A stretch of 42,112 bases of DNA. Origin: Mogibacterium sp. Its GTDB lineage: Bacteria; Bacillota; Clostridia; Peptostreptococcales; Anaerovoracaceae. Each line of letters starts with the position of its first letter. Positions within the stretch are counted from its first letter, which is position 1. A model generated the notes under the pieces. That model saw only the letters and a program-made list of their open reading frames with translations, was not told the DNA's origin and searched no databases. This document shows positions 1 through 29,368 of this stretch, one piece after another. The position numbers were made by a program, and so were the translations under genes. The stretch spans positions 146,478-188,589 of the forward strand of contig JAFWMD010000049.1 in NCBI GenBank assembly GCA_017510725.1, given 5' to 3'.

Positions 1-280
1 CAAGCTTTTTGCAGGCCGTCAGCTTGTCCATGTCGTACTGCGGAACAGCCGCGTCAACATACTTGATGCTGCGGACTATCTCTATTCTGTCCTCGAAAGG
101 TATCATAGCCTGCTTTCCCTTATATGCCACGAGCTCATCAACCGTTACGCCTACTATCAGCTTGTCGCACATTCCTTTGGCGTTCTTCAGCAGATTGAGA
201 TGCCCAATGTGGAACAGATCATACACGCCCGTGGTATAGCCGATCACCAGATCCTTTTCGTTATCCTTATTGTTTACCAT
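1..280 (-). CDS. Cytidylyltransferase, TagD/phosphocholine-type (partial, C-terminus outside window)
   Basis: This is the last gene of the polysaccharide operon seen here and it runs off the left edge, leaving about 93 N-terminal residues. It shows the nucleotidyltransferase signature TTGVYDLFHIGHL near residues 16-28, with the HxGH nucleotide-binding motif, followed by LIVGVTVDELV and an EDRIEIVRSIKYVD segment. These are typical of small cytidylyltransferases that make CDP-glycerol, CDP-ethanolamine or CDP-choline from the phosphorylated alcohol. The ATG at 278-280 follows a GGAGAGG ribosome site and lies 23 bases after the upstream ATP-grasp gene. A CDP-glycerol-type phosphotransferase (16371-17582) and a LicD protein (7263-9365) in the same operon are plausible users of its product. 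Family assignment is firm; the substrate (glycerol-3-P or a phospho-alcohol of the choline type) is not decided by this fragment. Confidence 0.85.
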   Translation of the reverse strand, partial: MVNNKDNEKDLVIGYTTGVYDLFHIGHLNLLKNAKGMCDKLIVGVTVDELVAYKGKQAMIPFEDRIEIVRSIKYVDAAVPQYDMDKLTACKKL

Positions 281-303: not shown

Positions 304-1698
304 TTACAGAAATTGTTCAAATCTTTCCCTCAGGCCCGTATCATCAAGCGAATATGGTGTCTGTATCGCCTTTGTTCCGAAAGACTGGTTCCCTTCAATG
401 AGTACTACCCTGCTGTCTTTCAGTACAGCAGCGTCCCAACCGACAAAAGGTGTATCAGGGCACTGTTTTGCTGCTTCACAGCAGCATCTGGCAACTTTGT
501 CCCACTCAGGAATCACTGCACCCTTGAATGTCTTACCACTCACCGGATGCTCTTTGTATCGTTCGCCGTGATAATCGGCTCCATCAGTCTCTATCAAACC
601 GGTCTCAACATTGATGCCTGCAGAGATCCCGCCCTGCGACCAGTTATCTGTGTTTCCATAGCGTCCCGTTCTCAATGCAGCGATCACCACACTAGCTTCA
701 CCATTCTTAATGGCGGTAATCACCCGCATGGTATTGACCGATCCCGGATAAAAGGCTGCGATATCAGGATGCTGATAAAGAAACTCTTCGACTATGCCGG
801 GCTCCAGGCAGCAAAGGTGTTCATATATTTCCCTGTTCTTCTGCGCACTTTCGTTCACGCGCAGCTTTTCCATGCCTATTCCCTTATCTCCCTCTTCAGG
901 CTTGTATACTATATATTCAAGACCATTGATCTTTGCTTCAAAATCCTCAAATGATAAGCCTCTGTTTGGAAAGACTGTCCGGTTTACGAACTCTCCGAGA
1001 TCTTCACTGAAGCGAATCTTATTGCGAAGTTTCATGCCGCTTTCATATGTTGTTGCATTCAGCAGCCATGCCTTGTGCTTTATCTCAGCAGTGAGCAGTT
1101 TTCTTGCTTCTTCAGGAGACCGGTTCCAGACCCTGAACTGGATGAATTCATCAGCAGCACAGCCACAGTTGTTTCGTGCCTTCAGCTGCTCAAGAGAATA
1201 TTTAGCCCTGCTCCAATGATTTCTCTCTGAAACCTCTTTTCTGATTTCCGCAAACCTCTTTTTCTTTTCCTTTTGCCATTCGTCTTCAGCTTCAGAAATG
1301 CGTATATTCTTTCTTGCTTTTATCTCATCATCGGAAAGCATAAATATACCGTCTGCCAGGAACCAGAACTCTTCATATCCGTACTCAGAAGCAAGTCTGT
1401 ACTTTCTTCTTACATCCTCAGCATCAATTCCGAATTTGCGGGAAATATGCTCACATACATCCTGTTCTCTTTTTTTTGTATATTCCGCTCTGCTGTCAAG
1501 CGCAGCTTTCAGCTCAAGACATTCCTCATCACTGAGCTCCCACGCACGGTAAGGTTTGAAGAACTGTGCATCAAGACCCAGTTCTTCAAAGTGCCGCAAC
1601 TGCTCAGCTGTTCCTTTCTGCTCACGCGAAGCCCGGCCGCCGCCGGCGGCCGATTTTAGGAATCGAACTGCTTTGGTGAGAACTGATTTCTTTTTCAT
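304..1698 (-). CDS. Sugar-transfer-associated ATP-grasp protein (third of three)
   Basis: A 464-residue cytosolic protein. The C-terminal half (about residues 220-464) is an ATP-grasp fold of the sugar-transfer-associated type (Pfam ATPgrasp_ST). It has IVYKPEEGDKGIG for the ATP-binding lysine and glycine loop, GSVNTMRVITA, and the metal/ATP site GWDAAV...LIEGNQ. The N-terminal half is charged and helical. It carries three loose copies of an aromatic motif (FFKPYRAWELSDEE, FWFLADGIFMLSDDE, FIQFRVWNRSPEE) that also occurs before the ATP-grasp domains of its two neighbours. The ATG at 1698 overlaps the preceding stop as TGATG; an in-frame GTG one codon earlier is possible. ATP-grasp enzymes join a carboxylate to an amine or similar nucleophile through an acyl-phosphate. 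Members of this family sit in capsule loci, but the substrate is unknown, and I infer decoration of the polymer or its precursor. Confidence 0.88.
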   Translation of the reverse strand: MKKKSVLTKAVRFLKSAAGGGRASREQKGTAEQLRHFEELGLDAQFFKPYRAWELSDEECLELKAALDSRAEYTKKREQDVCEHISRKFGIDAEDVRRKYRLASEYGYEEFWFLADGIFMLSDDEIKARKNIRISEAEDEWQKEKKKRFAEIRKEVSERNHWSRAKYSLEQLKARNNCGCAADEFIQFRVWNRSPEEARKLLTAEIKHKAWLLNATTYESGMKLRNKIRFSEDLGEFVNRTVFPNRGLSFEDFEAKINGLEYIVYKPEEGDKGIGMEKLRVNESAQKNREIYEHLCCLEPGIVEEFLYQHPDIAAFYPGSVNTMRVITAIKNGEASVVIAALRTGRYGNTDNWSQGGISAGINVETGLIETDGADYHGERYKEHPVSGKTFKGAVIPEWDKVARCCCEAAKQCPDTPFVGWDAAVLKDSRVVLIEGNQSFGTKAIQTPYSLDDTGLRERFEQFL

Positions 1699-4538
1699 CA
1701 CTTATCGCCTTTGTAATAACTGCGGAGCTTGTCATAACCGCCCAGGACTTTAGCGAATGAATCCATCGTTCCGATTCCGGACGCAGCCTGTTGACCAAGG
1801 AACTGCGTACGTGCATTCCCCTCCACAATGATCCATCTGCAGTCTTCCGTATAAGTGAGATCCCAGCCGATATAGCCCATCTCCGGAACTGCAGCAGATG
1901 CCTTTTTCGCTATTTCGAGAGCTTTGTCCCACTCAGGGAATGCATAGCCTTTAAAGACCGTTCCGTTGTCCGGATGAGCCGTGTAACGAGTTCCTGATTC
2001 GTCAACTCCATCACTATCCACAACACCAGTATTTATATCTATGTGTGCAAAAATACCACCGGCTCCGCCATTGTCTACAAATGACCCTTCTCTGCCGATC
2101 TTTGCAAAGCTGTCATGAATCACAACGGTTCCGTTATCATTATAGGTACAGATCCTTACAGTGTTTACCGAAGTGGAATTCAGTTTTCTGATCGACTCAT
2201 GTGCAGCGATCAGCTCCTCTACCATAAAATCTCCGCCGGATTCATAATGCTCATCAGCTAATTTTTCTATTTCACGCTGTTTTTCCGTATCATCCAGAGG
2301 CAGTCGGATAAGTTTTACGCCCTTACCCATGGAGTCGTAAAGAGACTTTATAACAATAGAGTCTTTTCCTTTTACGAACTCTTTAAGTTCCTCAAGATTG
2401 GTTCCGTCGTACAGGACAGCTTCTCTGCCGAACAGCACTCCAAGGCGCTTGTATGTGAGGTATTTGTTATTAAGCAGGTCGCATGCTTCCGGTGGATTTA
2501 TCTCATTGATAACATCATTCTTAAGAGCTGTTGAAACGAATTTCAGACGTTCAGCCATTGTCTTGTCTTCGAATCTGAACATATTATATTCATCAGGAGT
2601 GTATCCCCACACCTGCTGCATTATATGAATATCGATCGCGGTCTCCTTTGGAACCCTGTTGCCGGAAGCATCAGCAGGCACTGATTCAGCCATTTCGGCG
2701 ATCCGCTCTTCAGACAGACTCTCTCTCATTAATTCATAGATTCTGTCTATGTCTGCCTGTATCTCCGGAGAAATTGTGTTCCCGGCATAGGTGTTTTTTC
2801 TTACCCTTTCAATAAGCTCTTGTATCTCTGAAATCGCCTGCTTTCTTTTTTTAAGCTCTTCTCCGGAGAGATCATATATCCCGTAGTGATAGTACTGATA
2901 GGTTTTTACTCCCTTAGCCTTTTTGTCATTTTCCAGCTCTTCCCTGGTTTGCCCGGTGTGTGAGCACACGATTTCTCTTATGTCATTCAGTCTGTCAGCT
3001 GCCCTTTTCAGCCTTTTTGCCTCAAGTACGGCTCCTACCTTGGACAGCCTGTACAGTTTTCTCCTGTAATAAAGTTCCGGGTCTATGTTCGAATGCCTGC
3101 ATACATCCCTGAGTTTATTCATTACAGAATCAGTCCTGTCCCCGGTCTCAACAGAAATCAGCCACGCTATATTGTATTTTTCGGAGCTCTCCCTGATCAG
3201 ACCTGCTTCTCTGAGGGCGTCTTCGTATGGCATCCTGTACAGACCGTATTTGTAATATGCACCAGGCTCTATTCCCGTCCCGGTACAAAAGTCTTCCAGT
3301 TCTTTAAGTGCGGCCTTATGGTCGATCCACTTTTCGCTTCCAATAAGATATGCAATATAGTATTTATCTTCCTTCTGTCCTATTCCGGTAAGTTTTTTAT
3401 CCTTCTCTATATAATTTCTCTTCTCTTCAGGCTTTTGTGTCATATGCCTGAAGTATGGGAGAAGTCTGTTCATGGCGATCAGATTGAGCACATCCCCTGC
3501 TTTCTGATATTCACGGTAATAGATAGATCCGAACATTTCGTCCTTGTTTTCTTCTTTGCGCTTATCTACCAGGGAAATATATTTCTGCTCTTCTTTCCAT
3601 AAATCGTTATATCCGGCATCGGTGATCTCACGGAAAGTATCCGGAATTTCTCCTTTAAGTGCTCTTTCTGTATCTCTGTCGATATTTATGCCTGCTGTTT
3701 CAAAGCTTATGCCATCATCCGAAAATGCCAGCCTTAGGAGAAGCCCTTTATCCGTCCCTTCCTGCGAACGCTGGTAATCTGTATCGAACATGAAATTGCC
3801 AAGCGAGTAGAACACCGGCTTGGAGCCAAACATTTCATAACCCTGTACTACATGAGGATGATGTGATACGATCGCATCACAGCCCATATCCAGGAAGCTT
3901 TTCAGTAGTTTCCGTTTGTCAGGATCTGGTATTCTTAGAAATTCTGCTCCGCCATGATATACCAAAACAGCGTAGTCAGCTTTTTCTCTGATTTCATCGA
4001 TGGTTTTTTTGATGTCTCCGGTCATGGTATCAAGTCCCGGCCCTATGAAGGATCTTTCTTTATTTTTCTTGAAATCCTTATATTCAACAGCAAAAATTCC
4101 TACTTTGATTTCTTCACCGACTATTTCATATTTAAATGCTTCTTTTTTATTCCTGCCGATGCCTATGAACTTCACGCCATATTTTTCGGAATTCTCAATC
4201 GAATCGATGATACCAATATCGCTCATGTCGTTCATGTGATTGTTTGCAAAGCTCAGGATTGGGTTTTTGAATGCAGTTTTGAAATATCCGAGCACTTCAG
4301 GATCTGACCTGTGGCAGATGCGTCGCATCAGACCGGTCTTTTTACTCCTAATGTCCCTGTATGAGGTTACCGGGCTTTCCTGATTGATTACTGCTGCATC
4401 AGCGGTGTTCAGAAAGTCAAGCAGAGCCTGTTCGATTGGCTCCTCAGCAAGATACTGCTTCTGTAGTTTCGAACTGAATGACAGATCGCCCGAAAACCCT
4501 ATGACTGTTTCTTTTCTTTTCGTCTTATTGCTTTCCAT
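1698..4538 (-). CDS. CapA-like metallophosphatase fused to ATP-grasp (bifunctional)
   Basis: A 946-residue fusion. Residues about 11-290 match the CapA/PgsA family (calcineurin-like, linked to poly-gamma-glutamate capsules): FSGDLS at 15-20, NNH at 99-101, HGG at 195-197, SHHPHV at 225-230 and SLGN at 245-248 supply the metal ligands. Residues about 630-930 are an ATPgrasp_ST domain: IVIKSLYDSMGKGVKL, NTVRICTY, GWDLTY at 891-896 and EGN at 906-908. Between them, at about 390-570, three repeats of some 60-70 residues each contain an aromatic YY.....LYR-like motif. There is no signal peptide or membrane segment, although CapA proteins are usually membrane-anchored and extracytoplasmic, so this domain probably acts inside the cell. 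It overlaps the preceding gene by 14 bases and the following one by a single base, implying coupled translation. Both domains look intact. The fusion suggests a ligase plus a phosphoester- or amide-processing activity; the exact reaction is unknown. Confidence 0.88.
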   Translation of the reverse strand: MESNKTKRKETVIGFSGDLSFSSKLQKQYLAEEPIEQALLDFLNTADAAVINQESPVTSYRDIRSKKTGLMRRICHRSDPEVLGYFKTAFKNPILSFANNHMNDMSDIGIIDSIENSEKYGVKFIGIGRNKKEAFKYEIVGEEIKVGIFAVEYKDFKKNKERSFIGPGLDTMTGDIKKTIDEIREKADYAVLVYHGGAEFLRIPDPDKRKLLKSFLDMGCDAIVSHHPHVVQGYEMFGSKPVFYSLGNFMFDTDYQRSQEGTDKGLLLRLAFSDDGISFETAGINIDRDTERALKGEIPDTFREITDAGYNDLWKEEQKYISLVDKRKEENKDEMFGSIYYREYQKAGDVLNLIAMNRLLPYFRHMTQKPEEKRNYIEKDKKLTGIGQKEDKYYIAYLIGSEKWIDHKAALKELEDFCTGTGIEPGAYYKYGLYRMPYEDALREAGLIRESSEKYNIAWLISVETGDRTDSVMNKLRDVCRHSNIDPELYYRRKLYRLSKVGAVLEAKRLKRAADRLNDIREIVCSHTGQTREELENDKKAKGVKTYQYYHYGIYDLSGEELKKRKQAISEIQELIERVRKNTYAGNTISPEIQADIDRIYELMRESLSEERIAEMAESVPADASGNRVPKETAIDIHIMQQVWGYTPDEYNMFRFEDKTMAERLKFVSTALKNDVINEINPPEACDLLNNKYLTYKRLGVLFGREAVLYDGTNLEELKEFVKGKDSIVIKSLYDSMGKGVKLIRLPLDDTEKQREIEKLADEHYESGGDFMVEELIAAHESIRKLNSTSVNTVRICTYNDNGTVVIHDSFAKIGREGSFVDNGGAGGIFAHIDINTGVVDSDGVDESGTRYTAHPDNGTVFKGYAFPEWDKALEIAKKASAAVPEMGYIGWDLTYTEDCRWIIVEGNARTQFLGQQAASGIGTMDSFAKVLGGYDKLRSYYKGDK

Positions 4539-5703
4539 TTTTTTCTGCCTTCATTTCTTCCATCATGTTATCCAAAAGATAAAGCTTTCCATTATAGCTC
4601 GAAATCTGTGCGGACACGCACTGAGGACGCGAATTACCCTCTATGAGGATCCACCCTTTTTTTGAATATGCGAGATCCCAGCCGACAAGTCTTAGCTCAG
4701 GTATTACGTTCGAGACTTTTTTCAGCAGCTCCATGGCTTTATCCCACTCCGGCATTTTAAAGCCCATCAGCTGTACACCTGTATCAGGATGAGTCATATG
4801 TACATCGCCCTTCCAGTCCCTGCCTATTGAGCAGATGATCCCGGTCTCAGGATCTATCATCGCAGACAGGCCACCGCTGCTCGCGTTATCAGTATGGCTG
4901 CTTCCCATACCCATCCTGAGGAAGCACCACTGGATCTCCGGTTCATTGTTGCTGTTCAGATAAGTCACCGCCCTGACTGTATTGACCGATTCAGGATGGA
5001 ACTGTGCAAGAGCATCTCCCTGCTCGATCAGCTCCTCTACGATACCTGCTCCCTGTGAAGTCAGGATGTTAAAAGTATCATTTATGCCGGTTGTCTTTTC
5101 AGAATCAATGATCGTTATTCCTTTGCCGCCGTAATCATCTGATGGTTTGTAAATAAATACAGGGTGTTTTTTTACAAACTCAATAAATGCTTCCCTATCT
5201 GTTTCATCATAGAGCGGCAAAGCATCCCTGCCGTAGAATTCACTGAACTTCTTATACATCTCTGTCTTTTTATTGAGATATAGATTGTAGTTCTGGTTGT
5301 TCAGCTTTGAATAATAGCCGCGTTTATTTCTTGTAGTTACAAATGTTTTGCGGCCGGCATGTGACAGCTTTTCGAGCTCATAGGTGAAGTACTCCTGCGG
5401 ACTGAATCCATATACTTTATTACAGAAGAGAATGTCTTCACGCACCCTCCTCATTCTGTCTTTATCCGCTAACTCGCTTTCAGAGAAGCCTGCCTTCATC
5501 GCTTCATCGATAGCATCATTAAGCCTCGCAAGGCTCTGGCTCAGTCCCGGGATGGCGCCCATAAGGCCAAAAGCCGACTTTACATATCTTAAGTCTCCCT
5601 GAGATATGCATTCTTTTGATGCCATTGCTTCACATTTTCTTTTGATGCTGCCGCCGACTTTTCGTGCTAACATCCTTTTAAGTTGTTTCAGCATTCCAGT
5701 CAT
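4525..5703 (-). CDS. Sugar-transfer-associated ATP-grasp protein (first of three)
   Basis: A 392-residue cytosolic protein. Residues about 140-385 form an ATPgrasp_ST domain with FIYKPSDDYGGKGITII (ATP-binding lysine and glycine loop), ESVNTVRAVTY, and GWDLAY...LIEGNSRPQ near the C-terminus for the metal/ATP site. The first 100 residues are helical and charged, and carry the segment YGFSPQEYFTYELEKLS, which resembles the aromatic motif ahead of the other two ATP-grasp domains. The ATG at 5703 follows GAAAGGTAG; the methionine at codon 4 is an alternative start. Its stop lies inside the next gene, giving a 14-base overlap, so this trio is expected to be made together. The reaction is expected to be carboxylate-amine type ligation, but the substrate cannot be read from the sequence. 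Confidence 0.88.
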   Translation of the reverse strand: MTGMLKQLKRMLARKVGGSIKRKCEAMASKECISQGDLRYVKSAFGLMGAIPGLSQSLARLNDAIDEAMKAGFSESELADKDRMRRVREDILFCNKVYGFSPQEYFTYELEKLSHAGRKTFVTTRNKRGYYSKLNNQNYNLYLNKKTEMYKKFSEFYGRDALPLYDETDREAFIEFVKKHPVFIYKPSDDYGGKGITIIDSEKTTGINDTFNILTSQGAGIVEELIEQGDALAQFHPESVNTVRAVTYLNSNNEPEIQWCFLRMGMGSSHTDNASSGGLSAMIDPETGIICSIGRDWKGDVHMTHPDTGVQLMGFKMPEWDKAMELLKKVSNVIPELRLVGWDLAYSKKGWILIEGNSRPQCVSAQISSYNGKLYLLDNMMEEMKAEKNGKQ

Positions 5704-5731: not shown

Positions 5732-7246
5732 TCAGCGTGTTTTGACGCTCCTTTTTTTGCTCCATGGAGAGTATGTTCTGCTGCTGCCTGACCCTTTGAA
5801 GGTTCTGACCCTTACATAATATTTCTTCCTGGCTTTTAGTTTTTTGATCGTTCTTGATACGGTTGTTTTCTTTGAGATAGTAACTATCTTTCCATCACTG
5901 AAGTTACTCTTTCTTCCGTACTGTATCTGATATCCGCTGATTCCGCCTGATACCTTTTTCCACTTGACGGTAAATCGTTTTTTACCGCCTTTAACGGACA
6001 TGACAGACGTTGACTTTGGCGCCGCCGTGCTTACAGATATGCATTTCTGAGAAACAAAGCCTGTTGTTCCTTTATACACCACATAAGCCCACAAACCTCT
6101 TCTGTCAGTATATTTCAGGGTAAGAGCACTCCCCTTTTCAATTGTTTTTTTCACTGTGGATGTATCGCTGGCTGCAGCTCTTAGCTTTGTATTTGCTGTT
6201 GCTGTCAAGGTTATGTCAGCTGCAGCTGTACTGTCCGGTATAACCCGTACTATGCCGACTACCTGACTGCGGCTATTTTCATATCTTGAAATTACCACAC
6301 CACCGTATTTTGCTTTGCGTATATAACTGCCAACAGTGGAATTAAGGGATCCCCATCCATTGGTGCAGTGTATATAGTCGCCATATCCGAGATATATTCC
6401 CATATGGGTTGCATATCCGGCGTTCGTCTTATCAAACATTATAAGGTCGCCTGCTTGCATAGTGTTTTCATTCACCCTGGTTATTTTGAAGGCATTTTTG
6501 TACCCTTTGTTGAATATGTATTCACCGCTGTTCATGGATGCATAGAACTCCTTTGATGACGGCGGAAGATCATATGTAGGGACGTACTTTTTTATCTCAG
6601 TTTCAAGCATACTGCGGACAAATCCTGTACAGTCAAAATACGTTGCTTTGTCAGGAGTGAACTGTCCCATGTATTCGTTGGAATCCTTCCTTTTATAGCA
6701 GGTATTGGTAACGCCTTTATTGTATTTCAGAGCATTGTTTATTATCGTCTGCCGCAGGCCTGTCCTCGCAGTATAAACAGGCATATCTGCCCTCAGGTTT
6801 TCCAGGGAAATGACGTAGTACTGTCCTGCTGACTGAATAAGAGCCTGATTACTGGACGAGAAAATATCAACTATCTTTACCTTTTCAAGATAGAATGCAT
6901 AGTCAGGCAATGAATCTGAATTACCTCCTTCACGCGTATATATTTGTATTGCATCAGCCCCGTGTGTGTCGACATATGCGGTATCACCCGGAGAGAAAAT
7001 CGGCTCTGCTACTGGCTCATCCTCCACCGAGAACTCTTCAGGCTCCACCTGATACTCAGTATTTTCTGGTTCTTCTCCAGTGAACTCCGAATATTCTATT
7101 CCTTCTTCTTGCGACTGTCCCTGTTCTTCGGTCATTACATTATTGGCAATACCTGTATCATCTTCAGCATTTAGTATAGACACCGACAAAGGTGAAAGGA
7201 CTATCAAACAAGCTGTAATAAGTATCGTTATTATTTTTTTCATCAT
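5732..7246 (-). CDS. Secreted NlpC/P60 peptidase with SH3b and Fn3 domains
   Basis: A 504-residue exported protein. Residues 1-27 form a signal peptide, followed by a Glu-rich low-complexity stretch to about residue 85. Residues about 160-335 are an NlpC/P60 cysteine peptidase domain with Cys206 in YFDCTGF, His281 in THMGIYLG and a third polar residue, His293, in YIHCTN. These enzymes cut gamma-D-Glu-diamino acid or similar bonds in cell-wall peptides. Residues about 345-405 look like a bacterial SH3 (SH3b) domain, and 410-504 are a basic fibronectin-III-like tail ending in VKTR. That tail is closely similar to the tail of the interrupted CAP protein at 34058-37390. The ATG pair at 7241-7246 follows AGAGGACATC. 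Its place inside the capsule operon, between LicD and the ATP-grasp trio, suggests it processes either peptidoglycan at the attachment site or a peptide substituent of the polymer; this is inference. Confidence 0.88.
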   Translation of the reverse strand: MMKKIITILITACLIVLSPLSVSILNAEDDTGIANNVMTEEQGQSQEEGIEYSEFTGEEPENTEYQVEPEEFSVEDEPVAEPIFSPGDTAYVDTHGADAIQIYTREGGNSDSLPDYAFYLEKVKIVDIFSSSNQALIQSAGQYYVISLENLRADMPVYTARTGLRQTIINNALKYNKGVTNTCYKRKDSNEYMGQFTPDKATYFDCTGFVRSMLETEIKKYVPTYDLPPSSKEFYASMNSGEYIFNKGYKNAFKITRVNENTMQAGDLIMFDKTNAGYATHMGIYLGYGDYIHCTNGWGSLNSTVGSYIRKAKYGGVVISRYENSRSQVVGIVRVIPDSTAAADITLTATANTKLRAAASDTSTVKKTIEKGSALTLKYTDRRGLWAYVVYKGTTGFVSQKCISVSTAAPKSTSVMSVKGGKKRFTVKWKKVSGGISGYQIQYGRKSNFSDGKIVTISKKTTVSRTIKKLKARKKYYVRVRTFKGSGSSRTYSPWSKKRSVKTR

Positions 7247-7262
7247 GATGTCCTCTTACAGT

Positions 7263-9365
7263 CTATTGTGCGTTTCTGGACATGAATTCCCGGAATTCCC
7301 TGCTGTACTGATTATACTGGTTGTTGATCTCATTATAATCTTCTCTGATCCACTTTCTGTATTCCGCAAACTTTGCAGCATTGCGTTCGTTTAGCAGACC
7401 TTCTTTCTCCGCACGGATGAGGTATTCTTCTGCATCGAGGTTGTCCGCAAACAGCGCTGTTTTCTTTAGCTCTGTGCGAGACTCACCGGCCTCACACTTA
7501 TGCCAATATGTTCTGGATTTTATATCGCTGTTCTTCTTTTTCAGGACACTCCAGACAGAAGATGCAATGCCCACATCATTATAAGCAACAATATACTCAT
7601 CTGCTCCGCTGCCCCTGACTTCTGCGCTGCCTGCTTTTTCAAGCTCACGCTTCTTTTCGCTGTAATCATGCTCCTCAAGGTAGCAGTGCGTAACTCCAGA
7701 TCCACCCGCAGGCTCATCTTCAGCATCGTCATCTTTATCCTCGGTGTGGATAATGTCGAAACCCTCATCGATTATCTCCTGCAAAATGAAAGCGTTCACT
7801 ATATTGCCGACATCCATTCTGAACAGGGCTTCTGATGTCACGTCTTTCTGCCAGCTGCCCAGCTGTTCCAGCTCCTTAACTGCAAAAGCCTTGAGTATTC
7901 TGAGCTCACTTCTCTCGCCATAAATCTGCATGTTGGAATCAACCAGTTTTATTATCTCTTCTGCGAGCGCTTTTCTCTCTTCTTCCCTGGCTGAGGACCT
8001 CATCCTTTTCAGCATCAGACGGCCCCTGGCTTCAGGAATGCTAAGATTGAGCACATTCTCATTCTGCTTTATGAGTTTCTCCTTAGACTCAAGCTCATCC
8101 GGATAAACGTAAATCGCGTACAGCAGCTCTCTCGAGAGCTCTATCTGCTTTTTCAGTTCGTCCACGCAGTCAATCCTGTTTTTATCGACTATGTTCAGTA
8201 TGTTGACAGCCTTTGCAAAGTCGCCCATAGATACAAGCGTTTTCAACGCCTTTGAGAGAATCTCGGCAGGCAGCGGTACCTCGAGAGAATACCATCTGTT
8301 TGATTTGCTGATCTGCCCCTTATAATAAGGTCTGAACAATTCAAACAGTTCCGGGAGTGATAACTCACCCGCTTTTTCACGATAGCTTTTTTCGACCGAC
8401 ATGCCTAGCGCAAGATTTTTTAGACGCTCTCTTAAAACAATAGCATCCTTGAATCTCACCTGCTCTTCAAGCTTCAGCTTTTTTCTTTTACGCTGTACAT
8501 CAAGAATTGTATCAAGATCGAAGCTGTCGCCTATCGCCGCCATATATTCGTTGAAAGGCCTGTTTATATCTGCTGCCCAGGTGTGATGAGGTTTAGATAT
8601 ATTACCAGGTATCTGATACCACGACTCGTCATAGCTTTCCAGATTGTAATAAAGGCCATTCGCTGCAGCAAGCACCTTGTGCCCTTCAAATTTGATTTCT
8701 TTTATATTGTTTATCTCGGCCGCAGAGAAGAAATGTGAGTTTCCCAGCATACCCGAAAAGAACACATACTGCTCCGGTTTTTTGAATCTCCTCGTGTATT
8801 TATACTTAAGCTCCGGAAGTCTCTTCCTGACATACGCGTCCCTGCCCAGCCTTTCAAAAAGTCTTTTTTCTTTCTCATAATATGGGAAGAATTCTTCAGG
8901 CCTTCTGTATATCATTGATACATTATCAGCGAGCACTTCGTTGAATGCCAATATCTCGAGCTGATGTTTTTTTGCCTTCCTCTCGTTATGATGAGTCGGA
9001 ACACAGAAGAATACATCTATCTTTACCCCCGGGTCACTGCCACCAAAAATAGTATGTCTCTGCAACGCTGTCGTCGTTAAATCCACATATCTTCCATAAC
9101 AAAACGGATATTCAGTTGACAGCTCAAGCGCGTTAATACTCCGGCCTTCAGGCAGACCTTTGCGGGCAAGTTCAATAAACTTATCGTAATTTTCGAGCGA
9201 CATCATGATGTCAATGTCGTCATCCCAAGGTATCATGCCGTGATGTCTGTCCACGCCAAGCTGTGAACCAGCATAAAGCATATAGGATATATTGTTTTCC
9301 CTGAGCAACCCATCGAGTTCTACTAACAGCTCAGTCATTTTGTGTTGTAAATCACTGAATAGCAT
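7263..9365 (-). CDS. LicD-family phosphotransferase with long helical C-terminal extension
   Basis: A 700-residue protein. Residues 1 to about 250 match the LicD/fukutin nucleotidyltransferase-fold family: YAGSQLGVDRHHG near 31-43 and the metal-binding WDDDIDI at 47-53. LicD enzymes move phosphocholine, or in related members another phospho-alcohol or phospho-sugar, from a CDP carrier onto cell-surface glycans. The family is usually about 270 residues. The remaining 450 residues here are mostly helical and TPR-like (about 330-530), then an acidic linker (EDKDDDAEDE), then a final unrecognised domain of about 110 residues containing EYIVAYNDVG. No membrane segments are visible. The ATG at 9365 has only a weak ribosome site and lies 15 bases after the previous stop. 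A cytidylyltransferase at the end of the operon could supply its donor. The family call is firm; donor and acceptor are inferred. Confidence 0.85.
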   Translation of the reverse strand: MLFSDLQHKMTELLVELDGLLRENNISYMLYAGSQLGVDRHHGMIPWDDDIDIMMSLENYDKFIELARKGLPEGRSINALELSTEYPFCYGRYVDLTTTALQRHTIFGGSDPGVKIDVFFCVPTHHNERKAKKHQLEILAFNEVLADNVSMIYRRPEEFFPYYEKEKRLFERLGRDAYVRKRLPELKYKYTRRFKKPEQYVFFSGMLGNSHFFSAAEINNIKEIKFEGHKVLAAANGLYYNLESYDESWYQIPGNISKPHHTWAADINRPFNEYMAAIGDSFDLDTILDVQRKRKKLKLEEQVRFKDAIVLRERLKNLALGMSVEKSYREKAGELSLPELFELFRPYYKGQISKSNRWYSLEVPLPAEILSKALKTLVSMGDFAKAVNILNIVDKNRIDCVDELKKQIELSRELLYAIYVYPDELESKEKLIKQNENVLNLSIPEARGRLMLKRMRSSAREEERKALAEEIIKLVDSNMQIYGERSELRILKAFAVKELEQLGSWQKDVTSEALFRMDVGNIVNAFILQEIIDEGFDIIHTEDKDDDAEDEPAGGSGVTHCYLEEHDYSEKKRELEKAGSAEVRGSGADEYIVAYNDVGIASSVWSVLKKKNSDIKSRTYWHKCEAGESRTELKKTALFADNLDAEEYLIRAEKEGLLNERNAAKFAEYRKWIREDYNEINNQYNQYSREFREFMSRNAQ

Positions 9366-10829: not shown

Positions 10830-11717
10830 TTAATACCTCAGCTTACCATCTGCCACAGCCTTAAGATGCAGGCCGTATGGACTTTTGCCATATGCCTTTG
10901 CAGATTCGAGCAGGTGATCTTTATCGATCCATCCCTGTGCATATGCTATCTCCTCAGGAGCACTGATCTTGATACCTTGTCTCTTTTCTACCATCTGAAC
11001 GAACTCGGCTGCTTCAAGCAGGCTATCCATCGTACCGGTATCGAGCCATGCAAATCCTCTCCCCAGCAGCTTGACATCAAGCAGCCCATCATGCAGGTAC
11101 ATCTCGTTCAGAGTTGTTATCTCAAGTTCCCCTCTTGCTGAAGGTTTCACATTGTTGGCACGTTTACTTACATCCTTAGGATAGAAGTACAGTCCGGTTA
11201 CTGCGTAATTGCTCTTTGGATGTGCCGGCTTCTCTTCAATGCTGGTGGCATGCCATTCATCGTCAAAAGCTACTACACCAAAACGTTCAGGATCCGGTAC
11301 GTAGTATCCGAATACGGTAGCCCTGCTGTTCTCTTCTGCATTGGCAACTGCATCCTTGAGCAGCTTGCTGAAACCCCTGCCGTAAAAAATGTTATCTCCG
11401 AGCACCATTGCTCCCGGCTCACCGTTCAGGAACTCTTCACCAAGTATAAATGCCTGTGCCAGACCATCCGGTGACGGCTGCACTTTATATGAGAAAGATA
11501 CTCCAAACTGCGATCCGTCACCCATTAAAGCTTCGAACCTCGGTGTGTCTTCAGGCGTAGAAATGATCAGTATATCTTTTATTCCAGCCAGCATCAGTGT
11601 GCTAAGCGGATAATAGATCATAGGCTTGTCATATATCGGCAGAAGCTGCTTGGATGTAACCTTTGTAAGCGGGTATAGTCTTGTGCCGGCTCCTCCAGCT
11701 AAAATGATTCCTTTCAT
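10830..11717 (-). CDS. rfbA: Glucose-1-phosphate thymidylyltransferase (RmlA)
   Basis: A 295-residue enzyme of full family length that makes dTDP-glucose from glucose-1-phosphate and dTTP, the first step to dTDP-L-rhamnose. The nucleotide-binding signature [11 protein letters not shown] is at residues 8-18, with [18 protein letters not shown] following. Further family motifs are VLGDNIFYG and [15 protein letters not shown] near the C-terminus. The ATG at 11717 has a GAGG ribosome site about 10 bases upstream, and the gene follows rfbC after a 65-base gap. With rfbC and rfbD it gives three of the four rhamnose genes; rfbB is not in the window. Confidence 0.97.
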
Positions 11718-11782
11718 GTTTATGAACCTCTTTCCTGTGTCTCTAAAGCAGTATCAACTTTGAATCTTTCCTAATGCATATT

Positions 11783-12394
11783 TTACCTGAATACAAAAGT
11801 GTCCTTCAGCGGCAGCCATTTCTGGTCTTTGTCGCTTAAGACGAGCGGCGAGCCATCTTTAAGTCTGTAGCCGTCAGCAACTGCATTTCCTGCATATTCA
11901 CCTATTACTTCCGGCCATTCGATGCCTATCTCCGGATCGTTCCACGCGAGACCGCCCTCATCATTCGGATGATAAAAATCATCACACTTGTAGCAGAACT
12001 CTGCTATATCTGACAGTACCAGGAATCCGTGTGCGAATCCCCTTGGAATCAGATACTGTCTCCTGTTGTCTTCGGTAAGAATCACTCCGTAATACTTACC
12101 AAAGGTCGGTGATCCGGCCCGCAGGTCAACTGCCACATCATATACGGTTCCTTTTATGACCCTGACAAGCTTGGTCTGCGGGAATTTTTTCTGGAAGTGC
12201 AGCCCTCGAAGAACTCCTTTTGTGCTCATACTCTGGTTGTCCTGCACGAACGAGAAATAAAGTCCTGCCTCATACATGTCCTTCTGGCTGAAAGTTTCCA
12301 TGAAATACCCTCTTGAATCACCATGTACAGTTGATTCGATCAGGCAAAGTCCCTCTATCCCCCCAAGATTGTACGTTACGCTTATCTGGCCCAT
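11783..12394 (-). CDS. rfbC: dTDP-4-dehydrorhamnose 3,5-epimerase (RmlC)
   Basis: A 203-residue cupin enzyme that epimerises dTDP-4-keto-6-deoxyglucose at C3 and C5. Recognisable family segments are ESTVHGDSRGYFMETF, FVQDNQSMSTKGVLRGLHFQ with the catalytic histidine, VYDVAVDLRAGSPTFGKY, and IPRGFAHGFLVLSD with the second conserved histidine. An AGGAGG ribosome site precedes the ATG, whose first base is the last base of the rfbD stop (TAATG arrangement), so the two are translationally coupled. Length is somewhat over the usual 180-190 residues, with the surplus at the C-terminus. Confidence 0.97.
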   Translation of the reverse strand: MGQISVTYNLGGIEGLCLIESTVHGDSRGYFMETFSQKDMYEAGLYFSFVQDNQSMSTKGVLRGLHFQKKFPQTKLVRVIKGTVYDVAVDLRAGSPTFGKYYGVILTEDNRRQYLIPRGFAHGFLVLSDIAEFCYKCDDFYHPNDEGGLAWNDPEIGIEWPEVIGEYAGNAVADGYRLKDGSPLVLSDKDQKWLPLKDTFVFR

Positions 12395-13308
12395 TATAGA
12401 TCTGCCTCCTTTAGATATCTTGCTACTGCATCCTTCCAGTCCGGAAGCGATGTAAATCCGGCTTCCTTGAGTTTGCTCTTGTCGAGCCGTGAGTTGAATG
12501 GCCTGGCTGCTACACTCAGTCCATATTCCTCGGTTGTAACAGGAATTACCTTTGTGTCCATTCCTGCCTGTTTATATATCTCCTTGGTAAAATCATACCA
12601 GCTTATATATCCGCCTTCATTGGTTGCGTGATAATATCCATATTTATCAGTTTCTGCCATGTCAACAAGAAGTCTTGCGAGATCATAGCAGTATGTAGGT
12701 GTACCAATCTGATCATTGACTACACGCACCGTGTCATGTGTCTTTCCCACATTAACCATTGTTTTTATAAAGTTCTTACCATTCAGGCCGAACACCCATG
12801 CGATACGCACAATGAAGTACTTATCTACAGTCTCTGAGATAGCCAGCTCACCCTCGAGCTTGGTCTGCCCATAGTAATTAAGAGGCGCGTAATTTTTATC
12901 ATCAGGCTGCCATGGCCTTTCGCCCTGCCCGTCAAACACATAGTCAGTTGAAAGATAAATGATCTTTGCATCCACAGCCTTTGCGGCATCTGCCATGTTC
13001 TGTGTTCCTTCAACATTTATCTTATGCACGAGAGGCTGTTTTACGGGATCTTCCGCGCCGTCTACATTAGTCCATGCAGCACAGTGCACTATAACATCAG
13101 GGGCCGACTCTTCTACAGCTGCCAGTACTGCGTCCTTATCAGTTATATCCAGTCCTATATAAGGCATAGCGGTCACTGCACTTCCATCCTGAATACCCGA
13201 GTATACCGGATGTATATCCGAGCCTATGCCCTCATAACCTCTGCGTGACAACTCATTCATAACATCATGACCCAGCTGGCCACCAACGCCGGTTACAAAT
13301 ACCTTCAT
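12394..13308 (-). CDS. rfbD: dTDP-4-dehydrorhamnose reductase (RmlD)
   Basis: A 304-residue extended SDR that performs the last step of dTDP-L-rhamnose synthesis with NAD(P)H. The dinucleotide-binding loop TGVGGQLGHDV is at the N-terminus. The STDYVFDG segment and the catalytic YYGQTKLEGE (YxxxK) follow in the expected order, and the end has the family's RPFNSRLDKSKL motif. The ATG at 13308 follows a GGGGG-containing ribosome site. It is the first of the rfbD-rfbC-rfbA run and overlaps rfbC by one base. Confidence 0.97.
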   Translation of the reverse strand: MKVFVTGVGGQLGHDVMNELSRRGYEGIGSDIHPVYSGIQDGSAVTAMPYIGLDITDKDAVLAAVEESAPDVIVHCAAWTNVDGAEDPVKQPLVHKINVEGTQNMADAAKAVDAKIIYLSTDYVFDGQGERPWQPDDKNYAPLNYYGQTKLEGELAISETVDKYFIVRIAWVFGLNGKNFIKTMVNVGKTHDTVRVVNDQIGTPTYCYDLARLLVDMAETDKYGYYHATNEGGYISWYDFTKEIYKQAGMDTKVIPVTTEEYGLSVAARPFNSRLDKSKLKEAGFTSLPDWKDAVARYLKEADL

Positions 13309-16370: not shown

Positions 16371-17582
16371 TTACCTTAGCCCAGCGGCTGCACGAACCAC
16401 ATCAGTGATGATACGGCAGCAGTCTTTGCTGTCATAGATAATATGTTTTTTTCTCATCCGGTCTCTTAATGCTCTGTTTTTATCAGGATTTTCAAGATTC
16501 TCAACTATGGAATCCCGCAATTGGTCAACATTTGCAGCTATATCTCCGCAGGCTGCTTCTTCGCAGGTATAGTATAGCCCCCTGTCTTTATTTGCGTAGT
16601 AATCATAATCATACAGGAAATGTATGATAGGTCTGTCGAGTATCAGGAAATCGAAAAAACAGCTTGAATAGTCTGTAATGAGAATATCACTTGCAGCCAG
16701 GAGCTCCTGAGAAGCATACTCATCCAGGTAAAGGATACGGTCTAGATCATCCTTGAGTTTTTCCCTGGAATCCCTCTTCTGCGAAACGTAATGTGCTTTC
16801 TGTAACAATACGGCATTATGCATCCTGAGACAATCATTCAACTGCCGGCTTATGTCTGTACTCTTCAGATCAACTATTTTTTCATTTCGGTCTCTGAACG
16901 TCGGCATATATGTTATGATTTTTGTTTCGTCATCAATGCCGCCATACCTGTCGTCAAGAAATGATATGAGCTGCTTTCTGCATGCTGCGGTCTCTTTCGG
17001 GTCGTAAAACAGCGAGTTCCTCGGAAGGCCGGAACGAATCAGCTTATCAGAGTCCTTGATCAGAAAGGCTGATTTAAGCGCATTCGAGCATACTTCTGAA
17101 GATGTTACCACGTATGAATACGACTGAAGGGACAGCACAAGCTTAGAATACAGTTTGCCTGCCACACCGGAATAGGAATCCATACCGATCTTCTTCCACG
17201 GAACTCCATGCCACAGGTTTACTATAACCGCTCCGGATGAGTAGTTCAGAAAATCGCCCGAAAGATCTTGTACGCCCTCATTGACGAATGCCGCGCCTGC
17301 CCTGGAAAGGATCTGTTTTGCTTCCGCAGAGTCCATTTCGACCACTTTGATTCTTGGGTCAAGCAATTCTGTACCAGAGCAGTTTTTCTTTGCGATCCAG
17401 TAGATACTTATCTCCGGTTCGTTCTTCGCAACGTAATTTGCCAGATAGAAGGAATTGTCATTGCATCTGTCTCCGAACCACTCACCAAAGGCCCAGCAAT
17501 TTTTATCCCTTTTGCTGTGTTTATACTTATAATTTATTGCTATTCTCTTTAGCATCAGCGATGCCTTTGCTAATTTAGCCAT
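16371..17582 (-). CDS. CDP-glycerol glycerophosphotransferase family protein (TagB/TagF-like)
   Basis: A 403-residue protein matching the CDP-glycerol:poly(glycerophosphate) glycerophosphotransferase family. NLWHGVPWKKIG at 122-133 contains the conserved WHG histidine. IITYMPTFRDR at about 222-232 and ILITDYSSCFFDF at 300-312 are the other two family motifs that form the active site. Such enzymes add glycerol-phosphate or ribitol-phosphate units from CDP carriers to a lipid-linked sugar at the inner membrane face. The ATG at 17582 has AGGAGAAG upstream. In this operon it most likely puts a phosphodiester-linked polyol into the repeat unit, with the donor supplied by the cytidylyltransferase at 1-280; the substrate is inferred. 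Confidence 0.9.
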   Translation of the reverse strand: MAKLAKASLMLKRIAINYKYKHSKRDKNCWAFGEWFGDRCNDNSFYLANYVAKNEPEISIYWIAKKNCSGTELLDPRIKVVEMDSAEAKQILSRAGAAFVNEGVQDLSGDFLNYSSGAVIVNLWHGVPWKKIGMDSYSGVAGKLYSKLVLSLQSYSYVVTSSEVCSNALKSAFLIKDSDKLIRSGLPRNSLFYDPKETAACRKQLISFLDDRYGGIDDETKIITYMPTFRDRNEKIVDLKSTDISRQLNDCLRMHNAVLLQKAHYVSQKRDSREKLKDDLDRILYLDEYASQELLAASDILITDYSSCFFDFLILDRPIIHFLYDYDYYANKDRGLYYTCEEAACGDIAANVDQLRDSIVENLENPDKNRALRDRMRKKHIIYDSKDCCRIITDVVRAAAGLR

Positions 17583-17597: not shown

Positions 17598-19022
17598 TTA
17601 TTTTCTGATGCGTTTTCTTATAATGCCAAAGTGCTTTTCTTCCAGCATAAGCACAACGCTCCCTATGCAGAGAATAGCAGCATATCTTATCAACGCATGA
17701 TCGACCAGTCTGAGTGACAGGAAGTTGTTTGCTATAACAGCAACAGACGCCAGAAGAACTGTCCTCACGTCAAACAGCATCCTTCCCTCAATTCTGTATG
17801 CAAGTATCATATGTACAGTATAGTACAGGATGTAGGTAACCAGCGTTGTATATGCAGCTGCAACATATCCATACTTCAGAATAAAGAAATAATTCAGAAC
17901 TATGTTGATGACTGCTGCAAAAGCAGTGGCTAAAGCTATGCCGCCTGTTTTTTCATTGTAGTATTCCACTGCTGCCGGAATATTATACGAAAAGGCAAAA
18001 AAGCCTGATGTAACGATTGGAATGACGCAGTATACTGCTTCCTTGTATTTTGCGCCTCCGAGAATCAGTATCAGTTCCGGACTTGCCAATGCTACAAGTA
18101 CACACATCGCCAGCAGCAGCAGCATGTAATAACTCGATACTCTTTTTATTGCTTTAAAGTTATCTTCATTCCTTCGTTCAAAGAACCACGGAGACCAGAC
18201 ATTGTCGATAGATGTAGCAGTAACCGTGATGATCATATAAACGTTGTAGGCGAATGAATATACACCTGCGACAGCAGAATTAATCATATGCATGATCATA
18301 ATTCTGTCGAACTGATTCAGCACGATCTGGCTCAGGCCATGAGGTATGATCGGAAGAGAGTACCTAAGTCCCCACTTTATTGGTTTAGTGGATTTCTGCG
18401 GTCTGGCCTTACTGAAGTAGCTCAGGAAAAGGAATGCCGCTACAAAGACATAAGGTGCAGTGCATCCTACTATTCGGCCCATATATCTTTCATCATTGAA
18501 TACTGTAAAAATCAGTACAATAGACAGGATTATGCTGCTGATTGCGTTAAAAAATGAAACCGCCAGAAACTTCCCGTATTCATATCTGATGCCGACATCA
18601 GTATTAAAGCATGTTATGATCGCAGATGCGGCGCTGAACAGTACGAGAAGCGGAAGGCACTTTGTGTCGAGACCCAGCAGTCTGCTAAGCGGTTTGCTGA
18701 ATACTACAGACAGCACGAACCACACGCACGTACTGAGCAGAATTAAAATGAAAGTAGATGTAACATAACTGTTGTATTCTGATCTGTCGCTGCTCCCCTC
18801 ATGCTGAAACTTATAATAAGCATTCTTGTAACTTGAATGGATTGCAAAACCGATTATGACAAAAAGCATGGTTTCGTATGTTGCAAATATGCTGTATTGT
18901 CCATAATCAGCCTTAGTGAGGATACGTGCAAAGATAGGTAATGTCAGAAAAGTCATGCCTTTCAGAAGAAAATTACCCAATGTATATCCTATTCCTGCTT
19001 TTAAATACTTATTACCGGACAT
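17598..19022 (-). CDS. Wzx-type polysaccharide flippase
   Basis: A 474-residue integral membrane protein with about fourteen hydrophobic segments and no large soluble domain, beginning YTLGNFLLKGMTFLTLPIFARILTK, shown here only as a start pattern (LKGMTFLTLPIFARIL) typical of the polysaccharide/oligosaccharide flippase (MATE-like) superfamily. It also has the family's LRYSLPIIPHGLSQIVLNQFD segment mid-protein (key residues SLPIIPHGLS). It is expected to flip the undecaprenyl-diphosphate-linked repeat unit to the outer face for the Wzy polymerase. Its start overlaps the end of the preceding glycosyltransferase by 11 bases and there is little ribosome-site sequence, suggesting translational coupling. 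It is the only flippase of this type in the window. Confidence 0.93.
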   Translation of the reverse strand: MSGNKYLKAGIGYTLGNFLLKGMTFLTLPIFARILTKADYGQYSIFATYETMLFVIIGFAIHSSYKNAYYKFQHEGSSDRSEYNSYVTSTFILILLSTCVWFVLSVVFSKPLSRLLGLDTKCLPLLVLFSAASAIITCFNTDVGIRYEYGKFLAVSFFNAISSIILSIVLIFTVFNDERYMGRIVGCTAPYVFVAAFLFLSYFSKARPQKSTKPIKWGLRYSLPIIPHGLSQIVLNQFDRIMIMHMINSAVAGVYSFAYNVYMIITVTATSIDNVWSPWFFERRNEDNFKAIKRVSSYYMLLLLAMCVLVALASPELILILGGAKYKEAVYCVIPIVTSGFFAFSYNIPAAVEYYNEKTGGIALATAFAAVINIVLNYFFILKYGYVAAAYTTLVTYILYYTVHMILAYRIEGRMLFDVRTVLLASVAVIANNFLSLRLVDHALIRYAAILCIGSVVLMLEEKHFGIIRKRIRK

Positions 19023-19737
19023 TCTTTTTTATAAATCTGCGTGCGACCAGATGGCGGGCCAGATTGAATCTGGCTGAAATGATCACCTTCATCGGCCTCT
19101 TACTCGTAGGAGTAACGTTATAGTCGTGGAGGCGGTGCATAATAAGGTCTTCATCCAGAAAAACCAGCTTCCCCAGCACTTCTCCCGTCATGCCAAGCCA
19201 ATGGTCATATGCGCCTACGTCTCTCGGTATAGGAAGGATTACTCTTTTAAATTCTTTTGTAAACGCTGTGCAGCAGCCGCTGTATCTTGGCTTTGCAAAA
19301 TTTCTGATCAGATTGTTACCGATATTGTAAAGGGCAAAAAAGGACTCCGAAATAATCTCATTGTTTTTGTCGATATGCTTCCCGCTGTGGATCACCATGT
19401 CCGCTCCGGTCTTCCTGAAGCATTCCACGACCGTCTCAATTTTCCTGGGATCCCAGATGTCGTCCTGATCCGAAATGAATATATAATCCTTGGAACAGTG
19501 GCTGATTGCATTCTCAAAATTACCGAAAACACCCGGGTCACTGTTTAATACCACTTTCACATTAGGGCACTCTGATTCATACTCACGGATGATCTCCAAC
19601 GTATTATCGTTTGAATTATCATATGAAATCACGAGTTCATCATTTTCATTAAGTTGTACCAGAATGGAGTCTATTTGCTGTCTGATGAAATGTTCTCCAT
19701 TGTATACCGCCATTGCTACGGACACACTGCTGTTCAT
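19012..19737 (-). CDS. Family-2 glycosyltransferase (rhamnosyltransferase-like)
   Basis: A 241-residue cytosolic glycosyltransferase of GT-A fold. It begins VSVAMAVYNGEHFIRQQIDSI, read as the usual first strand and helix (AMAVYNGE), and has the acceptor/donor motif FISDQDDIWDPRK at about residues 88-100. The DQDD motif is common among bacterial rhamnosyltransferases and related enzymes. The rfb genes in the operon would supply dTDP-rhamnose, so a rhamnosyltransferase is a reasonable but unproven call. The ATG at 19737 follows CAGGTG, and the 3' end overlaps the flippase gene by 11 bases. At 241 residues it is shorter than the 280-300 of many relatives, missing only variable C-terminal sequence. 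Confidence 0.9.
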   Translation of the reverse strand: MNSSVSVAMAVYNGEHFIRQQIDSILVQLNENDELVISYDNSNDNTLEIIREYESECPNVKVVLNSDPGVFGNFENAISHCSKDYIFISDQDDIWDPRKIETVVECFRKTGADMVIHSGKHIDKNNEIISESFFALYNIGNNLIRNFAKPRYSGCCTAFTKEFKRVILPIPRDVGAYDHWLGMTGEVLGKLVFLDEDLIMHRLHDYNVTPTSKRPMKVIISARFNLARHLVARRFIKKNVR

Positions 19738-19749
19738 AGTTTCACCTGT

Positions 19750-20583: not shown

Positions 20584-20617
20584 ATTGCCTCCTACTGAAT
20601 AATTAGCACAGATTATA

Positions 20618-22638: not shown

Positions 22639-22650
22639 TAGTGATATTTA

Positions 22651-23901: not shown

Positions 23902-23937
23902 AGACAGTTCCCTCCTCTATTAGTATGCATTATCTGA

Positions 23938-24519: not shown

Positions 24520-24542
24520 GGTCTTTCCTTTTCAGTTTAATG

Positions 24543-27404: not shown

Positions 27405-27416
27405 AAACCGTATTTT

Positions 27417-29261: not shown

Positions 29262-29368
29262 TATTTGGCACCTCAAAAGCCGGGCGCACCGTCCGTTCAA
29301 AAATAAAGAATAGCGCCTTTACTTTTTATTCTGTATCGGCACTAATGCTCCTTTCCTTAATTGGTTTA

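Follow-up and report, generated by a model that had tools for sequence, protein, structure and literature searches.

The stretch analysed here, referred to as the window, comprises 42,112 nucleotides (positions 146,478–188,589) of contig JAFWMD010000049.1 (C25) from a Mogibacterium sp. assembly (GCA_017510725.1; 2.4 Mb, 84.5% complete and 5.7% contaminated). Three minus-strand open reading frames (ORFs) near its beginning, open over their full length at 4525–5703, 1698–4538 and 304–1701, encode three ATP-grasp ligases, the second of which is fused to a CapA domain. The module is organized as follows (window coordinates, bit scores against Pfam profiles):

4525–5703, minus strand: AG1, ATPgrasp_ST ligase of 392 amino acids (PF14397, 165.6 bits; domain at approximately 4588–5325)
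1698–4538, minus strand: CapA-AG2, fusion protein of 946 amino acids in a single open frame (PF09587, 160.7 bits; PF14397, 162.0 bits)
3783–4502, minus strand: soluble CapA (calcineurin-like) domain, residues 13–252 of CapA-AG2 (PF09587, ligand residues and tree)
2853–3344, minus strand: linker of CapA-AG2 with three copies of a 44-residue repeat (residues 399–440, 461–500 and 524–562; local profile)
1746–2519, minus strand: AG2 ATP-grasp domain, residues 674–931 of CapA-AG2 (PF14397, 162.0 bits; residues and tree)
304–1701, minus strand: AG3, ATPgrasp_ST ligase (PF14397, 140.4 bits; domain at approximately 313–957, with three repeat copies upstream of it)

All scores lie far above the Pfam cut-offs (31.4 bits for PF14397 and 27 bits for PF09587), which confirms the first-pass annotation, made from the letters alone, in placing three ATPgrasp_ST domains in consecutive overlapping genes and a CapA domain on the chain of the second. 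The AG1 and CapA-AG2 genes overlap by 14 nucleotides, as annotated; the annotated 1-base overlap between CapA-AG2 and AG3 (TGATG) holds if AG3 starts at ATG 1698 (464 amino acids) and becomes four nucleotides with GTG 1701 (465 amino acids). Hydropathy gives no sign of a signal peptide or membrane helix in any of the three proteins, where the 19-residue mean peaks at 1.14. An ORF artefact was rejected as the source of the fusion, since the frame is open and the CapA half and the ligase half each have relatives of their own. In genome G130 (genomes and loci are denoted by G and L numbers), the two parts are neighbouring genes, CapA and ATP-grasp, which share a reading frame and are separated by a stop codon. 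Among the matches listed for this bacterial family, on which the statement rests, the CapA-ATPgrasp_ST fusion without a stop is found in the window only, and further fusions may exist.

The K, GxG, NTxR, DN, GG, WD and EGN motifs are all present in AG1, AG2 and AG3, including the ATP-binding lysine/glycine loop and the WD and EGN motifs already noted at first pass. One arginine, two aspartates, two glycines, one glutamate and one asparagine are invariant across all 70 aligned ATP-grasp domains. In the tree of 70 domains (those shorter than 170 amino acids were dropped), AG1 and AG2 fall on separate branches within one 19-row group (support 100/99), and AG3 is located in another group on a long branch. 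Once two G1203 domains are added, AG1 groups with proteins of G403 and G1203 (100/99). CapA is the next gene downstream of the ligase in all three members of this AG1 branch (window, G403 and G1203), which, together with the fusion of CapA to AG2, supports the earlier view that CapA is coupled to ligation. A recent tandem duplication of the three ligases was rejected because of the separate branches and the mutual identities of 28–33%. With their catalytic residues intact, all three ligases look active. Among Pfam matches to E 0.05, the three ligases give no TupA-family match. Two long ligases of other loci (L045:3562–5886 and L058:10313–12787) carry ATPgrasp_ST at the C-terminus; their N-terminal halves give weak matches and are perhaps a second, degenerate copy.

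The CapA-AG2 linker and AG3 (1105–1611) each hold three copies of the 44-residue repeat; the local profile detected none in AG1. Of the 495 ORFs scanned, 34 contain the repeat and 33 of these encode ATP-grasp proteins; the remaining carrier is an unannotated protein of 1412 amino acids (L059:11437–15675). The repeat consensus ends TGWSREEAKAKIKKAKEKYGISYKDYYKYGLYKLSDEEL, and no above-cut-off Pfam family covers the repeat within the window.

The CapA domain retains D18, E54, N100, H101, D104, H195, H227 and H229, so that its metal ligands are intact, as first described. These eight metal and catalytic residues are invariant in 14 soluble CapA proteins including that of the window, and in 14 of 15 when the CapA of G1203, found later and counted apart, is included (L062, L086, L087 and L088 were left out of the count). 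In a CapA tree of 31 rows, which covers ORFs longer than 300 amino acids other than the CapA-Mur protein of L046, 14 rows are soluble proteins of this bacterial family and form a single group (94/88), which splits into five ligase-linked rows (98/95) and nine sister rows (99/99). Addition of the G1203 CapA shifts the support of the ligase-linked branch from 98/95 to 91/94 (six rows). The ligase is fused, adjacent or one gene away in all five ligase-linked cases. Thirteen other rows of this bacterial family are membrane-anchored, with a hydropathy maximum of at least 1.99 over residues 1–70, compared with 0.59 in the window CapA. The reported absence of a signal peptide or membrane anchor is therefore correct; the accompanying view that a soluble CapA is unusual is not, because 14 of the 31 rows form one soluble group. 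The CapA proteins of L062 and of L086, which belongs to another family, also have no hydrophobic start, yet fall outside this group.

The nearest solved relative and the nearest curated named family of the CapA domain are both MslH, whereas 5´-nucleotidases match only at E 0.004 or worse. MslH is a metal-dependent epimerase of the C-terminal residue of a lasso peptide, with two His/Asp pairs and the metal ligands Glu44, Asn87, His259 and His261 at its active site (PMC10406935). Seven of the eight MslH active-site positions are kept in the window CapA, including both His/Asp pairs; D18 stands for Asp11 by virtue of the GD motif, outside the printed alignment. In contrast to MslH, the window CapA has a glycine at the position of His261, keeps an H-x-H pair, is fused to a ligase, and scores 55.5 bits against the MslH family NF038314, well below the cut-off of 700 bits; no lasso peptide genes are found among the annotated window genes. 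The residues of the two-metal calcineurin-like phosphoesterase type represented by YmdB, namely Asp8, Glu39, Asn67, His150, His175, His177 and His68/Asp71 (PMC10406935), correspond to D18, E54, N100, H195, H227, H229 and H101/D104, where H227 was assigned to His175 by reading of the motif. The residue after E54 is a serine, in contrast to Asn40 of YmdB. The residues alone do not decide between an epimerase and a phosphatase.

The module lies within a longer same-strand gene cluster. A TagD-type gene begins 23 base pairs past AG3 and is followed, beyond the window edge, by genes for an AsnB-like enzyme (no glutaminase domain match), LicD, TagF, a TagG/KpsM-like permease and a TagH-like ATPase. 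The first-pass placement of the ligases at the end of an operon therefore fails; the impression arose because the window ended there, not the operon. Upstream, the order is NlpC/P60, LicD, a weak Wzy-like gene, RmlA/C/D, glycosyltransferases and TagF. The cluster features in the window are:

1–280, minus strand: 5´ part of the TagD-type cytidylyltransferase gene, which runs beyond the window (full gene at C25:146293–146757)
5732–7246, minus strand: NlpC/P60 protein with SH3_3 and fn3 domains, directly upstream of AG1 (domain search)
7263–9365, minus strand: LicD-family phosphotransferase (PF04991, 100.5 bits)
10830–13308, minus strand: RmlA, RmlC and RmlD, dTDP-rhamnose supply (domain search)
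16371–17582, minus strand: TagF/TarF-type glycerophosphotransferase (PF04464, 218.7 bits)
17598–29300, minus strand: Wzx, glycosyltransferases, Wzy-like and weakly Wzz-like proteins, initiating sugar-phosphate transferase and sugar-modifying enzymes (domain searches)
32703–33419, minus strand: IspD/TarI-like cytidylyltransferase (domain searches)

The TagD, TagF and TagGH genes score below the NCBIfam equivalog cut-offs and are therefore assigned by type only. From its gene content, we read the cluster as a phosphodiester-type, teichoic-acid-like wall glycopolymer locus. It shares the TagD, TagF and TagGH types with teichoic acid synthesis and export, and differs in adding Wzx/Wzy-type genes and three ATP-grasp ligases. 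A poly-gamma-glutamate capsule locus was rejected, as no Mur-ligase-type synthetase (PF08245) lies beside CapA or on the contig; the 84.5% complete genome contains five PF08245 proteins, none of them on C25. The PgsA/CapA proteins of poly-gamma-glutamate capsules belong to the same Pfam family, PF09587, and are membrane-anchored, whereas the window CapA is soluble.

With the 946-residue protein as query, matches were obtained in 84 of 197 genomes at the level of the bacterial family (E 1e-10), in 28 of 393 at that of the order (1e-35) and in 21 of 398 at that of the phylum (1e-25); a short-peptide scan of genome contigs gave three loci, all with the ligase part only. Within the genus, 31 of 47 genomes contain PF14397. 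Five multi-ligase loci of the genus were read, and in four of them (window, G409, G396 and G1203) the AsnB-like gene comes immediately after TagD, with TagG, TagH and LicD also present. The AsnB-like protein is 82–85% identical among these four, compared with 45% between AG1 and its G1203 counterpart, which suggests that the ligases form a rapidly evolving cassette attached to a conserved core, comparable to serotype loci. In the survey of fusions and gene neighbours proposed at first pass, the fusion is confined to the window among the matches listed, and TagF, TagG, TagH or TagD lies within the stretch read in 11 of 16 multi-ligase loci (window included, and G1216 not, as only one of its ligases passed; the neighbour-gene table covers stretches longer than 9 kb, with L055, L056 and L076 outside). 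The arrays of several family members also include a D-Ala-D-Ala ligase and Mur-type ligases that bear LRR_5 tails and proved MurF-like in the cases tested, and Mur-type ligases are present in loci of G130, G072, G443, G162 and G042. The MurF-like and D-Ala-D-Ala ligases in these arrays indicate that peptide-making enzymes travel with ATP-grasp ligases.

No ligase is found in any of the nine sister CapA loci within the stretch read, which is short in L055 and L056. Opp-type transporter and NlpC/P60 genes occur in four of them (L049, L050, L051 and L053) and M20 dipeptidase genes in five (L049, L052, L053, L055 and L057), so that seven of the nine have one or the other and L054 and L056 have neither. 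The sole M20 protein tested resembles PepV-type dipeptidases, and alanine dehydrogenase is encoded in L050 and L051. CapA lies on the opposite strand in L050, and an opposite-strand gene separates CapA from the M20 gene in L052. In L049, L050, L051 and L053 (G106 and G128), runs of Opp-type and NlpC/P60 genes are followed by M20 dipeptidase genes or by MmgE/PrpD and alanine dehydrogenase genes, a gene order that resembles murein-peptide utilisation operons, with a soluble CapA beside them. In Bacillus subtilis, the Dpp transporter genes adjoin ykfA-D, with the NlpC/P60 protein YkfC and the dipeptide epimerase YkfB (PMC2954226). Several sister loci share a transporter, an NlpC/P60 peptidase and dipeptide processing with that system, and CapA may fill the YkfB-like epimerase place, replacing the enolase-type enzyme; the comparison concerns the sister branch, not the window. 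In the five sister-branch genomes, enolase-type (MR_MLE) matches exceed 100 bits in G106 and G128, reach 37 bits in G189, stay below the cut-off in G067 and are absent from G044; the G128 gene lies upstream of the operon on the opposite strand. A missing enolase-type epimerase was considered as proof that CapA takes the place of YkfB, and this was not upheld. Among the ligase-linked genomes tested, MR_MLE matches are strong in the window's own genome and G403, and none was found in G130, G072 and G443.

The domains, their intact residues, the operon context, the separate ligase branches and the AG1-CapA pair in three genomes are observed; from them we infer a substrate, a reaction order, the inversion and the role of the repeats. 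The three genes would constitute the amide-forming section of a teichoic-acid-type glycopolymer cluster, in which ligases and CapA assemble amino-acid or peptide substituents on a wall-polymer precursor in the cytosol. Taken as a whole, this is the best explanation we can offer, and we hold it tentatively. The ligases probably form amide bonds on the polymer or its precursor; that the window CapA is an epimerase is a more guarded proposal, somewhat less likely than not. AG1 would activate a carboxylate with ATP and join it to an amine on the polymer precursor or a side chain. CapA would then process the AG1 product, most likely by inverting the α-carbon of the newly added free-carboxylate residue in an MslH-like manner, or alternatively by removing a phosphate. 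AG2, which is on the same chain as CapA, and AG3 would extend or cap the substituent, their 44-residue repeats probably holding the growing chain, and the TagG/TagH-like transporter would export the product. The first-pass interpretation, a relay of three ligases with CapA processing or releasing the product, is retained in its three ligases, which look active and lie on separate branches, its wall-polymer context and its coupling of CapA to ligation; the operon end and the unusual solubility of CapA are dropped. If the proposal is right, peptide decoration with stereochemical editing would join the repertoire of teichoic-acid-like polymers, and CapA would gain a chemical function. To our knowledge, there is no agreement on the role of CapA, even in capsules that have been studied in depth. 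A CapA that is soluble, fused to one ligase and paired with another, can be purified and assayed with the ligase product, which makes its job testable, and the sister loci suggest L-Ala-D-Glu as a simple first substrate.

ATP-grasp amidation of surface sugars is already known. In Campylobacter jejuni, the ATP-grasp enzyme Cj1438 amidates the glucuronic acid of the capsule, and the HAD phosphatase Cj1435 acts afterwards (PMC11800379). This system shares with the window an ATP-grasp enzyme in a surface-polymer cluster and ligation followed by product processing; however, Cj1438 is a single ligase with a TupA-like C-terminal ATP-grasp, in contrast to the three ligases of the window, which give no TupA match, and Cj1435 is a separate protein, whereas the processing domain of the window is a CapA fused to a ligase. 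The animal proteins of the C7orf58 type, fusions of ATP-grasp and esterase with predicted cell-surface polymer modification (PMC2824669), likewise join a predicted amino-acid ligase to a surface-polymer processing enzyme; their ATP-grasp is of the tubulin-tyrosine-ligase type, unlike the ATPgrasp_ST and CapA of the window. Teichuronopeptide, which consists of poly-glutamate and polyglucuronic acid, is an older wall-polymer case (PMC8153356). No paper on a CapA-ATP-grasp fusion was recognised among the matches listed (open-access literature, titles and abstract openings). Iyer and colleagues reportedly predicted ATP-grasp ligases in capsule loci in their 2009 work on amidoligases.

Several observations weigh against the cytosolic assembly of peptide substituents with CapA as an epimerase. 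At E 0.01, a profile of 29 ATPgrasp_ST relatives retrieves not a single solved structure, and the open-access literature searched yielded no paper that names the ATPgrasp_ST/PF14397 family or treats its function. At the CapA active site, His261 of MslH is replaced by Gly197, a position that is non-histidine in 27 of 27 sequences, and H227-P-H229 preserves the H-x-H pair seen in two-metal phosphoesterases, so that phosphatase chemistry is possible; both features favour a phosphatase. The CapA of G1203 (L115:7259–8476), which lies beside an AG1 relative in the same genus, has E54, N100 and E199 replaced and is possibly inactive though kept in place, so that the AG1-CapA pair persists despite the loss of E54 and N100, which argues against an obligatory CapA reaction. 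CapA-like regions also lie N-terminal to Mur-type ligases in L046 (2.3e-39), L043 (8.6e-9) and L044 (5.4e-6); the L046 region has no ligands in the alignment, and those of L043 and L044 match in part only. The G1203 losses and the ligand-free L046 region indicate that CapA can serve without metal chemistry. The strong MR_MLE matches in G106, G128, G403 and the window's own genome mean that the epimerase role is not empty everywhere. As to gene context, G1216 of the same genus has two neighbouring ligases without Tag, AsnB-like or LicD genes, and in five of the 16 multi-ligase loci (L011, L045, L058, L061 and L062) the stretch read is free of Tag genes, with L045 running on into L046, where TagD and LicD are found. 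All associations are biased upward, because the loci were picked by similarity to the window protein.

The same ligase module would also work with CapA as a phosphatase or phosphodiesterase: a ligase would attach a phosphorylated amine, such as serinol phosphate, ethanolamine phosphate or a glycerol-phosphate derivative, and CapA would strip the phosphate. In its favour, CapA has every one of the eight YmdB-type residues compared, H227-P-H229 among them; phospho-alcohols are supplied by the TagD/LicD/TagF setting, and the Cj1438/Cj1435 pair is a precedent. We nevertheless consider this rather unlikely, given that seven of the nine sister CapA loci lie beside peptide-utilisation genes, that a serine follows E54 in place of YmdB Asn40, and that the nearest solved relative is the epimerase MslH rather than a 5´-nucleotidase. 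In some relatives a role in binding is favoured by the G1203 losses and by the presence of CapA-like regions on Mur-type ligases. For the window, a CapA that mainly tethers the ligases to the polymer or precursor, with dispensable chemistry, is improbable, since none of the eight residues varies among the 14 soluble CapA proteins and such conservation is unexpected of a mere tether. The gene company of ligases, MurF-like enzymes and dipeptidases points to amino acids or peptides, and we therefore rank inversion first, phosphate removal second and binding third. Equally little probability is assigned to ligases that do not decorate the polymer and instead form a separate amide product, an ester bond or a peptidoglycan modification, the operon being merely shared. 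The silence of the open-access literature searched on PF14397 leaves room for this, as do the NlpC/P60 and MurF-like genes, which hint at murein peptides, and the ten of 13 single-ligase loci that have no Tag, LicD or AsnB genes: L008, which holds the lone ligase of the window's own genome, L010, L012, L048, L060, L077, L079, L118, L119 (G1216) and L120, as opposed to L044, L046 and L116. Against it stand the overlap of the genes midway along a polymer operon and the TagD and AsnB genes near the ligases in four of the five same-genus multi-ligase loci read.

Extending the epimerase proposal, the CapA family at large could consist of metal-dependent peptide-end epimerases, which in this bacterial family would act both in murein-dipeptide recycling in place of YkfB and, when joined to or partnered with ATP-grasp ligases, in placing D-residues in peptide side chains of the teichoic-acid-like wall polymer. 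We regard this generalization as unlikely; if true, the same epimerase chemistry would explain the CapA of poly-gamma-glutamate capsules.

Further proteins of unexpected architecture were observed in these loci. Mur-type ligases with an N-terminal CapA-like region are encoded at L043:16372–19347, L044:1414–4371, L046:4095–7373 and L047:638–2839, the match being strong only in L046. The MurF-like protein of L043 has a C-terminal LRR_5 tail, which is unexpected on a Mur ligase, and other Mur-type ligases are alike; L075:2–3859 was rejected as a Mur ligase, as it encodes an LRR/Big protein. In the window, a protein of 953 amino acids (24543–27404) combines an initiating sugar-phosphate transferase, an epimerase/RmlD-like domain and a WaaS/CpsH-type glycosyltransferase. 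The GTG-initiated ORF at 34058–36469 starts inside a CAP domain (residues 2–46 match profile positions 72–117), and the gene may be truncated or shifted upstream. On the downstream side of the exporter genes, L007:637–8572 contains three FHA or zinc-ribbon genes and a gene for an FHA-FtsK/SpoIIIE protein of 1679 amino acids, which we presume to resemble a type VII secretion ATPase.

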